Positions 2,318 to 10,653 of a DNA stretch of 64,000 nucleotides are shown in pieces. Both the position numbers and the translations under genes were made by a program. The notes beneath the pieces were generated by a model. That model searched no databases and was not told the DNA's origin. It saw nothing but the letters and a program-made list of their open reading frames with translations. Positions within the stretch are counted from its first letter, which is position 1. The number at the start of each line of letters is the position of its first letter. Origin of the DNA: Microbacterium sp. zg-Y625 (GTDB lineage Bacteria > Actinomycetota > Actinomycetes > Actinomycetales > Microbacteriaceae); assembly GCF_030246925.1 (NCBI RefSeq), contig NZ_CP126740.1:558001-622000 (forward strand), given 5' to 3'.

Positions 2318-8176
<5,859 letters not shown>

Positions 8177-8180
8177 CGCT

Positions 8181-8260
8181 CGCGAGTGAGTATTCGTCGC
8201 GCCGAGTGAGTATTCGCCGCGCCGAGTGAGTATTCGTGCTCGCGAGTGAGTACTCGAGCA
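8181..8260 (+). repeat. Tandem array of four 20-bp repeats (left array)
   Basis: Four contiguous units with an exact 20-bp period begin 4 bases after the guaB stop. Each carries GAGTGAGTAYTCG, itself an imperfect dyad CGAGT-N4-ACTCG (perfect in unit 4). There are no spacers, so this is not CRISPR. The same unit occurs in opposite orientation at 9401-9500. Confidence 0.9.
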
Positions 8261-8265
8261 GCGCC

Positions 8266-8529
8266 TCAGCCGAAGAGTCCGTCGACGAGCGCGCGGCGCG
8301 TTCGTCGCGCTCACGCTGCATGCGGGCGAGGGGATCCTCGCGCCTGGCGTGACCGCGCGGCTCCGCCGGAGCGGCCGCGGCCGATGCAGGCACGGCGGGG
8401 ATGCCGGAGGGCGGGGTGGGTGCTTTCTGGAATGTGCCGCAGCGTCGCGGTCGGGCCGAGCGGTCGCATCCATGCGGCGGACGCCGAACCGGTGGCATCC
8501 GCGCCGCAATGCTCGCAGATCTCCATCAT
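8266..8529 (-). pseudogene. Frame-broken small zinc-ribbon-like gene
   Basis: Read on the minus strand, three conserved-looking pieces lie in two frames. An N-terminal piece with CEHCGAD and a C-terminal ALVDGLFG followed by TGA share one frame. The middle (CGTFQKAP, then an Ala/Pro-rich linker to DPLARMQRERDE) is in another. Two compensating frameshifts would rebuild a protein of about 87 residues with a CxxC...C pattern. No single frame spans it, hence the pseudogene call; sequencing error is the alternative. It sits between the two 20-bp repeat arrays. The family is not known to me. Confidence 0.45.
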
Positions 8530-8545
8530 TCGGTCTGGACCGAAT
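8528..8545. promoter_or_regulatory. Perfect 18-bp palindrome
   Basis: ATTCGGT and ACCGAAT are exact inverted arms around CTGG. The site touches the start codon of the frame-broken minus-strand gene, where a repressor would block expression. The cognate regulator is not in the window as far as I can tell. Confidence 0.4.
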
Positions 8546-8728
8546 CGTGGCGATGTCCGATGGACCGGCGCGGTGATGCTGCGCTCGTTCCGCCGCGGGC
8601 GCGAGATTTACTATCGGCGCACGTCTCTGGGCGACAGCGTCGCCTTCCCGGATGCCCACGCCCTCAGCCCGCGATGACCGCGGCGCTGCACCGCCGCCAG
8701 GACACTTACTGGGCGTCGGAGACCGGGC
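8546..8728. other. Interval without a recognisable gene
   Basis: Short frames exist on both strands here, but none has a ribosome binding site or family-like protein sequence. It may be remnant DNA of the decayed gene to its left. Confidence 0.4.
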
Positions 8729-8734
8729 TAGCCT
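8729..8734 (+). promoter_or_regulatory. Leaderless-type -10 (TAGCCT)
   Basis: TAGCCT ends 6 bases before GTG 8741 and no Shine-Dalgarno is present, matching the TANNNT box of leaderless actinobacterial transcripts. Confidence 0.5.
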
Positions 8735-8740
8735 GACCCC

Positions 8741-9359
8741 GTGATCCGGAGCCCGCGGTCGGCGAGCCTGTCCACGCGCCGGATCGAGGCATTCACCGAC
8801 GGCGTGTTCGCCATCGCGGCGACGTTGCTCGTACTCGACCTCACCGATCATTCGCTGGGCGAGGTCGACTCCGAAGCCCAGATGTGGGCGGCGCTGGGCG
8901 ACATGTCGAACCTCTTCTTCAATTTCGCGCTGAGCTTCGTGCTGCTGTGCCTGCTGTGGCGAGTGCACGTGCAGCAGTTCGAGCATGTCCAGCGCGTGGA
9001 CACCACCGTCATCTGGCTCAACAACGCGCGGCTGCTGTTCATCGTGCTCGTTCCGTTTGCGACGAATCTGACCACCGAGTACTCGGAATTCGTGGCGGGC
9101 CGACTGGCCATGCCGGTGAGTTTCTTCCTCGCGATCCTGTGCAGTGGGCTGCAGTGGGAGTGGATGGCACGCCACGCCGACGTGATGCTTCCCGAGATGA
9201 CGACGGCGGACGTCGTCGCCTTCGGCCGCGCCTCGCGCAGCGCCCTCATCATCAGCGCCGTGGTCGTCGCGCCGGCGCCCTGGGTCGGGTCCTGGGCATT
9301 CCTGCCTGTTCCTCCTCGACGGCGTCTTCACTCGGGTACTGCGCCGCAGGGCCGCCTGA
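8741..9359 (+). CDS. TMEM175-family potassium channel-like protein, frameshifted near its 3' end
   Basis: Small membrane protein of about 200 residues. RIEAFTDGVFAIAATLLVLDL at the N-terminus is the TMEM175/DUF1211 signature (bacterial K+ channels of two short repeats); four or more hydrophobic helices follow. After about residue 188 (GSWAFLP) the frame reads into arginine/glycine-rich sequence and the right repeat array, finally stopping at 9463. A +1 shift near 9300-9310, at the doubled CCTG, restores a natural end: a helix CLFLLDGVFTRVL, basic residues and a TGA at 9357-9359. So either a recent frameshift mutation or a base-calling error. The start follows the leaderless pattern. Confidence 0.65.
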
Positions 9360-9400
9360 TCCGGGGTGGATGCCGGCGGGGTGAATGCCGACGGGGGGAC

Positions 9401-9500
9401 CAGTACTCACTCGGCACCGCGAGTACTCACTCGGCGCCGCGAGTACTCACTCGGCGCCGCTAATACTCACTCGGCACCGCGAATACTCACTCGGCAGCCG
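9401..9500 (-). repeat. Tandem array of five 20-bp repeats (right array, inverted)
   Basis: Five contiguous units with an exact 20-bp period. Read on the minus strand they carry GCCGAGTGAGTAYTNG, the same unit as the array after guaB. The array ends 28 bases before guaB3. Together the two arrays form a large inverted repeat around about 1.1 kb. Confidence 0.9.
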
Positions 9501-9528: not shown

Positions 9529-10653
9529 GTGAGCATGGAGATCGAGATCGGCCGCGCCAAGCGGGCCCGCCGCGCGTACGCCTTCGACGACATCGCCGTG
9601 GTGCCGTCGCGCCGCACCCGCAACCCCGAGGACGTCTCCACGGGCTGGGCCATTGACGCGTTCCAATTCGACATCCCGGTTCTCGCAGCCCCCATGGACT
9701 CCGTCGTCAGCCCCCGCACCGCGATCATGCTGGGCCAGCTCGGTGGCCTCGGGGTGCTCGACCTGGAGGGCCTGTGGACGCGCTACGACGACCCGGATCC
9801 CCTCCTGGCCGAGATCGCGACGCTCGCCGACGCCGAGGCCACCCGGCGCATGCAGGAGCTGTACGCCGAGCCCATCAAGCCTGAGCTCGTCCGCGACCGG
9901 CTCGCCGAGATCCGCGCCGCCGGTGTCACCGTCGCCGGTGCCCTCACCCCGCAGCGTACGCAGCAGCTGTACGAGACCGTCGTCGCCGCCGGCGTCGACC
10001 TCTTCGTCATCCGCGGCACGACCGTCTCGGCCGAGCACGTCTCGAGCGTCGACGCTCCCCTGAACCTCAAGAAGTTCATCTACGACCTCGACGTTCCCGT
10101 CATCGTCGGCGGCGCCTCGACATACACCGCCGCGCTGCACCTCATGCGCACCGGCGCGGCGGGCGTGCTCGTCGGCTTCGGCGGGGGGGCGGCATCCACC
10201 ACGCGCGCCACCCTCGGCGTGCACGCGCCCATGGCCACCGCCGTCGCCGACGTCGCCGGCGCACGCCGCGACTACCTCGACGAGTCGGGCGGCCGCTACG
10301 TGCACGTCATCGCCGACGGCGGTGTCGGCACCTCCGGCGATATCGTGAAGGCGCTGGCGATGGGGGCGGATGCCGTCATGCTGGGCGTCGCCCTCGCCCG
10401 GGCGACCGATGCTCCCGGCCGCGGATACCACTGGGGCCCCGAAGCGCACCACTCCCGGCTGCCCCGCGGCAGCCGCATCCGCGTCGAGCAGAAGGTCAAC
10501 CTCGAGTCCGTGCTCTACGGCCCGGCCACCGTCGCCGATGGCACCGCGAACCTCATCGGCGCGCTGAAGAAGTCCATGGCGACCACAGGCTATTCGGATC
10601 TCAAGGAGTTCCAGCGCGTCGAGGTCGTCGTCGCGCCGTACCGGTCCAGATGA
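9529..10653 (+). CDS. guaB3: GuaB3-family IMP dehydrogenase-like protein
   Basis: Cytosolic TIM-barrel paralogue of GuaB, 374 residues, with no CBS domains. Family hallmarks are YAFDDIAVVPSRRTRNPEDV, VLAAPMDSVVSP, a late VIADGGVGTSGDIVKAL and the GYSDLKEFQRVEV end. Where true IMP dehydrogenases carry the catalytic cysteine (SICTT), this protein reads GGAASTTR with Ser223, so ordinary IMP dehydrogenase chemistry is doubtful. Actinobacteria commonly carry this second gene near guaB; its role is not settled. GTG 9529 fits a leaderless start; ATG 9535 with GGAGG upstream is the alternative. The 3' end overlaps the SURF1 gene by 4 bases. Confidence 0.88.
   Translation: MSMEIEIGRAKRARRAYAFDDIAVVPSRRTRNPEDVSTGWAIDAFQFDIPVLAAPMDSVVSPRTAIMLGQLGGLGVLDLEGLWTRYDDPDPLLAEIATLADAEATRRMQELYAEPIKPELVRDRLAEIRAAGVTVAGALTPQRTQQLYETVVAAGVDLFVIRGTTVSAEHVSSVDAPLNLKKFIYDLDVPVIVGGASTYTAALHLMRTGAAGVLVGFGGGAASTTRATLGVHAPMATAVADVAGARRDYLDESGGRYVHVIADGGVGTSGDIVKALAMGADAVMLGVALARATDAPGRGYHWGPEAHHSRLPRGSRIRVEQKVNLESVLYGPATVADGTANLIGALKKSMATTGYSDLKEFQRVEVVVAPYRSR

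Follow-up and report, generated by a model that had tools for sequence, protein, structure and literature searches.

The window analysed here, a stretch of 64,000 nucleotides from Microbacterium sp. zg-Y625, carries two facing arrays of short tandem repeats between two purine genes. The gene for IMP dehydrogenase, guaB (6674-8176, + strand, TGA stop at 8174-8176; an open reading frame also called by codon usage), precedes guaB3 (9529-10653, + strand; an open reading frame call), both names being those of the initial annotation. Array 1 (8183-8256, + strand) consists of four exact copies of the core CGAGTGAGTAYTCG, with T, T, T and C at its variable position, joined by the spacers tcgcgc, ccgcgc and tgctcg; its first core lies 6 nt past the guaB stop, and the array is sense to guaB. 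Array 2 (9400-9493, - strand) has five units, three with exact cores and two with one changed base, shows T, T, C, C and C at position 11 of its cores when read in its own sense, ends 35 nt ahead of the guaB3 start (9529) and is antisense to both neighbours. The pattern CGAGTNNNTAYTCG has seven matches in the window, against a mean of 0.01 in shuffled sequence. The initial annotation was right that two facing arrays of four and five units exist here; its unit counts stand, while the positions and the gaps of 6 and 35 nt are refinements. Its 20-bp period also holds, but not its claim of exact 20-bp repeats, as only 14 nt of each unit stay constant and the remaining 6 nt differ.

What lies between the arrays (8260-9361) is, judged by eye, native DNA in decay rather than cargo. 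Decay had been recognized at the outset, yet the remains are those of three genes, not of two: a zinc-ribbon-like gene (8260-8540, - strand), recognizable by three-frame translation as pieces in different frames with a CEHCG motif; the 3' remnant (8570-8677, + strand, by-eye comparison) of a gene of about 298 aa that is whole at this place in M. pullorum; and a TMEM175-family gene (8741-9361, + strand; PF06736, E 1.8e-25) whose frame is lost near the 3' end. As called, the open reading frame of the latter extends to 9463, into array 2, and the break was judged by eye against the copy in another genome, G158. The arrays are not the ends of a mobile cassette: the enclosed genes vary by species, one relative (G031) has no interval, M. 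pullorum has another gene there and, by eye, G158 has a TMEM175-like gene after guaB with no arrays.

The two arrays belong to a family that is found throughout the genome. Exact cores number 292 in the 3,259,775 bases of the whole zg-Y625 genome (152 on the + and 140 on the - strand), and a reversed-pattern control yields none. The arrays studied, 67 in 35 stretches including the window, were taken around the matches listed, and the genome thus contains at least 67; they form 50 clusters in those 35 stretches of one genome. Iterons and multimeric operators occupy one or a few loci, as a rule beside the gene for the binding protein. A locus-specific iteron, an operator or a barrier between the purine genes, as initially envisaged, is ruled out by this genome-wide occurrence, mostly at gene 3' ends.

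Each unit joins a 14-nt core that hardly varies to a variable 6-nt spacer. Core-to-core steps of up to 65 bp are exactly 20 bp in 127 of 136 cases across the 35 stretches. With one array of out-of-register units set aside, 66 arrays comprise 238 units, 2-7 per array and mostly 3-5. The spacers are diverse (78 distinct among 172) and locally related, with an agreement of 0.69 between neighbours within an array vs. 0.45 across arrays. Replication slippage, one of the initial proposals, fits the identical adjacent spacers (37 of 106 pairs) but does not explain the dispersal of the arrays. Arrays are polar: core position 11 is T in all 66 first units and C in 18 of the 66 last units, and other core changes gather toward the array 3' end (6/66 first, 15/106 middle and 20/66 last units). 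In one stretch (L051), a run of CCCCG repeats just left of position 2036 adjoins an array.

Genes around the arrays were called with a purpose-written codon-usage caller, which probably missed at least one gene (at L049). Of the 67 arrays studied, 47 share their strand with the gene behind the array 5' edge, and in 45 of these 47 the array-to-stop distance is between -27 and 22 nt, the other two lying at 68 and 220 nt. Among the 66 arrays with both neighbours called, 45 are sense and lie within 22 nt of the stop or contain it; when placement and orientation are shuffled within the same gaps, 5000 trials give a mean of 12.2 and a maximum of 23. In 20 of the 47 sense arrays, the stop codon is the first core's own TGA (C GAG TGA GTATTCG). 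The 20 antisense arrays sit 24-515 nt from the gene behind, and the farthest (L049) probably has a missed gene, since a 598-codon open frame with a coding score enters its core. Of the 35 solo arrays, 24 have the same sense as the gene behind and 11 the opposite one, or 25 and 10 if L049 is corrected. Array 1 fits this position rule; array 2 belongs to the roughly ten solo arrays that depart from it in being antisense.

Arrays at most 80 bp apart always converge: all 16 such pairs have the forward array first and the reverse array second (F-R), and none is R-F. The F-R junction is exactly 3 nt in nine of the 16 (L045, L047, L053, L058, L064, L066, L067, L068, L070), and arm lengths differ by 0-2 units. 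Eight pairs lie between convergent genes, seven between co-directional and one between divergent genes, against 54:209:80 among baseline gaps (minimum length 40 bp, drawn from the window plus the G031 and G294 stretches, with those that carry arrays left in); the convergent context is thus found in 8/16 pairs vs. 54/343 baseline gaps (16%; Fisher p 0.002). That the R arm arose by fold-back copying of the F arm is rejected, because the agreement of mirrored spacers is below that of random ones (0.22 vs. 0.46; n = 16, not independent). In the pairs with a 3-nt junction, the facing spacers differ as if perfect long palindromes were avoided.

Two cores in register occur in five of 295 sampled genomes of the genus, with 292 exact cores in zg-Y625 (G000), 186 in G067, 96 in G031, 32 in Microbacterium pullorum Sa4CUA7 (G025) and 4 in G294. 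These five form one clade with support 100/99 in a guaB tree built from the 30 closest rows. Among named species genomes, a set from which records near the window's genome may be missing, only M. pullorum Sa4CUA7 has core matches (7 stretches). Fifteen more genomes hold one core each, which is near the chance level, as the control pattern has 9 matches in 8 genomes. No match to the repeat was found in viral contigs, plasmids or phages, and a phage or plasmid origin is rejected; Rfam gave no match above the gathering score in six sources. In the open-licence PMC literature, no report of such repeats in Microbacterium was found, and the 12 letters GAGTGAGTATTC matched two papers, both unrelated by title.

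Array sites are shared within this clade. Relatives of guaB are present in 294 of the 295 genomes, and the comparison with related strains proposed in the initial annotation finds that G031, G067 and M. pullorum all carry the guaB array in the same position. The site of array 2 is old, since M. pullorum has this array as well; at the corresponding place G294 retains no more than a core with two changes. Of the 18 zg-Y625 clusters that are bracketed in G031, 17 have one or more near-cores there, and the first cluster of L052 has none; G031 mostly has fewer units, 44 vs. 84 over the 17 clusters. Across 42 unit pairs aligned between these two genomes, cores differ at 14/546 positions (3%) and spacers at 66/252 (26%). 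This count omits position 11 and admits up to three mismatches per core (15/572 and 73/264 at a limit of four), and the core value is biased low because units were detected under a mismatch limit. The difference supports the initial suggestion that the fixed-period array invites sequence-specific recognition. The nine clusters bracketed in G294 include no exact core and a single core with two changes.

How a site may be founded is indicated by a gene with SIS and glutamine amidotransferase domains (L046), which we take to be glmS. In 10 outgroup genomes its product ends ...VTVE, with the codon GAG followed by TGA (four genomes), TAG (five) or TAA (one) and no core. At that end, zg-Y625, G031 and M. 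pullorum carry the first core, which falls on exactly C GAG TGA, and in G067 the gene ends GAG TAA and has no array. Gene ends of the form CGAGTGA make up about 3% of ends (7/236 in G294 stretches, one of them an array; 3/85 at outgroup loci; 1/56 in the window). Together with the glmS comparison, this background makes it most likely that arrays arise at gene ends that already read CGAGTGA. The spreading agent is neither a RAYT nor a reverse transcriptase as far as the domain searches reach: PF01797 (IS200-like Y1 transposase, RAYT) has no match in any of 15 genomes, the five with arrays among them (control positive in 5/14), and PF00078 (reverse transcriptase) has none in the five array genomes and is present in one of 10 outgroups (G222).

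The strand on which the arrays are read matters for their predicted structure. Among the 34 solo arrays folded, the sense RNA has a mean z of -3.8 against shuffles and the antisense RNA one of -1.6, a gap that does not amount to 34 independent tests because the arrays share one core; the 16 F-R pairs have predicted fold z values of -7.6 to -15.8. Core can pair with core over 12 of 14 positions when G-U pairs are allowed, and on the sense strand only. Most units have an imperfect form of the dyad CGAGT-N4-A(C/T)TCG that had been proposed as a DNA feature (204 of 238 have T and 33 have C at core position 11), and the argument from the dyad is weak on DNA because the majority letter breaks the dyad; what survives is its fit to sense RNA with G-U pairs, and sense-only pairing of this kind would also account for the dyad-breaking T being the common letter. 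All 58 arrays of at least three units stop all three frames in sense, whereas 54 of 66 stop none in antisense; the closure arises because 20-nt steps rotate the TGA through the frames.

These observations converge on a reading to which we give a probability of about one half: the window arrays are two copies of a dispersed, clade-specific family that lies mostly in sense at gene 3' ends, and whose transcribed hairpins, as modelled, would protect or shape mRNA ends in the manner of REPs. For the family as a whole we infer a REP-like 3'-end element of new architecture that acts at the RNA level. A founder unit would most likely settle where a gene already ends CGAGTGA, and the array would then lengthen through 20-bp slippage. 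In the sense RNA, core would pair with core, G-U pairs allowed, or, in F-R pairs, arm with arm, and the helix together with the all-frame stops would stall 3' exonucleases, ribosomes or polymerase. A hypothetical trans-acting factor would account for the retention of the exact core letters. Array 2 could, on this RNA reading, have antisense transcripts as its targets or form long-range pairs with array 1. Against a 3'-end function stand the antisense orientation of about ten solo arrays, array 2 included, the one pair that lies between divergent genes, and the loss of nearly all arrays from G294 with no known harm.

A further step, which we put forward tentatively and hold to be rather improbable, would make the family a 3'-end element of a new, sequence-specific class, in which 20-nt units in head-to-tail order start from the native stop, close all three frames, pair unit with unit or arm with arm in the RNA, and would be kept letter-perfect by a dedicated trans-acting factor that was lost in G294 along with nearly all arrays.

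Structure alone does not require exact letters, and a binding protein may therefore be primary. In its DNA form this idea takes the core as the site of a protein that, bound to an array phased at two helical turns per unit, would serve at gene ends as a polar roadblock or as an anchor of the nucleoid. The strict 20-bp phase (127/136 steps), near-invariant core letters over variable spacers, the consistent convergent orientation of pairs and the near disappearance of arrays from G294 (4 cores, and 0 exact at the nine bracketed sites), as if the factor had been lost, all speak for it. But the T of 204/238 units breaks the DNA dyad, the stop codons in the core and the sense placement at the stop are left with no role, and the candidate protein is hypothetical, which makes this account unlikely, if the strongest of the competing ones.

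Slightly more doubtful is a purely selfish repeat that a putative enzyme spreads to CGAGTGA ends, that slippage lengthens and that has no host function. Its clade-limited occurrence in unequal numbers (292, 186, 96, 32 and 4), its strong enrichment at CGAGTGA ends, the identical adjacent spacers and its near absence from G294 with no known harm are what such an element would leave; however, positions are kept between species, cores resist change, and neither an IS200-like transposase (15 genomes) nor a reverse transcriptase (the five array genomes) was found.

Bidirectional terminators of convergent genes are improbable by a wide measure. In their favour, convergent genes flank half of the F-R pairs vs. 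16% of baseline gaps, the pair hairpins are predicted to be very stable, and two pair sites (L046, L048) seem, by eye, to be occupied in G294 by ordinary hairpins. Against them, the longest T-run in the 30 nt behind 66 arrays is 3, no intrinsic terminator was called at the window's two arrays, solo arrays as well as seven co-directional pairs and one divergent pair exist, and one array lies inside an apparent operon in five species, where an acyl-CoA dehydrogenase gene and a ligase-like gene flank it. The missing T-run and that operon array likewise argue that the arrays are not plain intrinsic terminators.

Several known repeat systems resemble the 3'-end element preferred here in part. MIRUs of Mycobacterium tuberculosis are likewise actinobacterial tandem units at TGA stop sites, but differ in unit size (about 50-100 bp), in locus number (a few dozen) and in the lack of inverted pairing. 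Neisseria DNA uptake sequences share a short, invariant, clade-specific word and inverted pairs behind genes, and differ in lacking the 20-bp tandem. REPs are 20-40 bp palindromic repeats with a GTAG or CGTC tag at one end; one account describes their repeat ends as able to supply a stop codon, TAG, and takes G-T pairs as a sign of transcription (PMC3733652). E. coli REPs located at most 15 nt from a stop have been reported to stall ribosomes (PMC12306157). The likeness of the Microbacterium arrays to REP/BIME/REPIN elements, as that first account presents them, lies in an intergenic location downstream of genes, between unidirectional and convergent ORFs, in units of opposite orientation that may fold together, in G-T pairs and in the supplied stop (TAG in REPs, TGA here) (PMC3733652). 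The arrays are indeed intergenic, mostly behind genes, enriched between convergent ORFs and predicted to fold as RNA. They differ from REPs in having no RAYT-type transposase and no stem-loop per unit, as head-to-tail 20-bp units pair unit with unit; over 238 units, neither GTAG nor CGTC has a fixed position, and CGTC occurs by chance in spacers (CGTCGC, 20/172). STAR elements of Staphylococcus, with a 14-bp consensus T(G/A/T)TGTTG(G/T)GGCCC(C/A) and spacers of at least 40 bp, are also dispersed 14-bp direct repeats with locus-specific spacers, numbers that do not track relatedness and an obscure mechanism of spread (PMC3532100). Their core is another one, their spacers are at least 40 bp vs. 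6 nt here, and the main text of that report mentions no stop-codon or orientation rule (PMC3532100). Because the defining marks of each are absent, the repeat is set apart as a variant, not a member, of REP or STAR.

A single 14-nt word that stands in hundreds of copies at gene ends, is abundant in one clade and has nearly vanished from one sister species offers a natural experiment on how a short repeat spreads and is retained in genomes with no RAYT. If the RNA reading is true, a high-GC actinobacterium ends or protects its messages through arrays with no T-run. Thanks to the contrast among the five species, the function can be tested directly, and so can the missing enzyme or binding factor. 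The sole full array of G294, between the acyl-CoA dehydrogenase (Pfam) and putative acyl-CoA ligase genes, is also the one common to all five species; its flanks are 84.6-89.6% identical to each relative vs. 83.7-91.2% among the relatives, and a recent gain by G294 is rejected. There the acyl-CoA dehydrogenase frame crosses the first core and stops in the second, and the other four species are alike by eye; the first core would thus be translated (RVSIR...) at the C-terminus of the enzyme (L144:8759-8832 and the orthologs L145-L149). At the 3' end of the ligase-like gene, no array was seen in the 200 nt inspected of G294 and G031, and further arrays (L148, L147, L149) are found in the other three genomes, with seven exact or near-exact units in zg-Y625, four in M. 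pullorum and two in G067.
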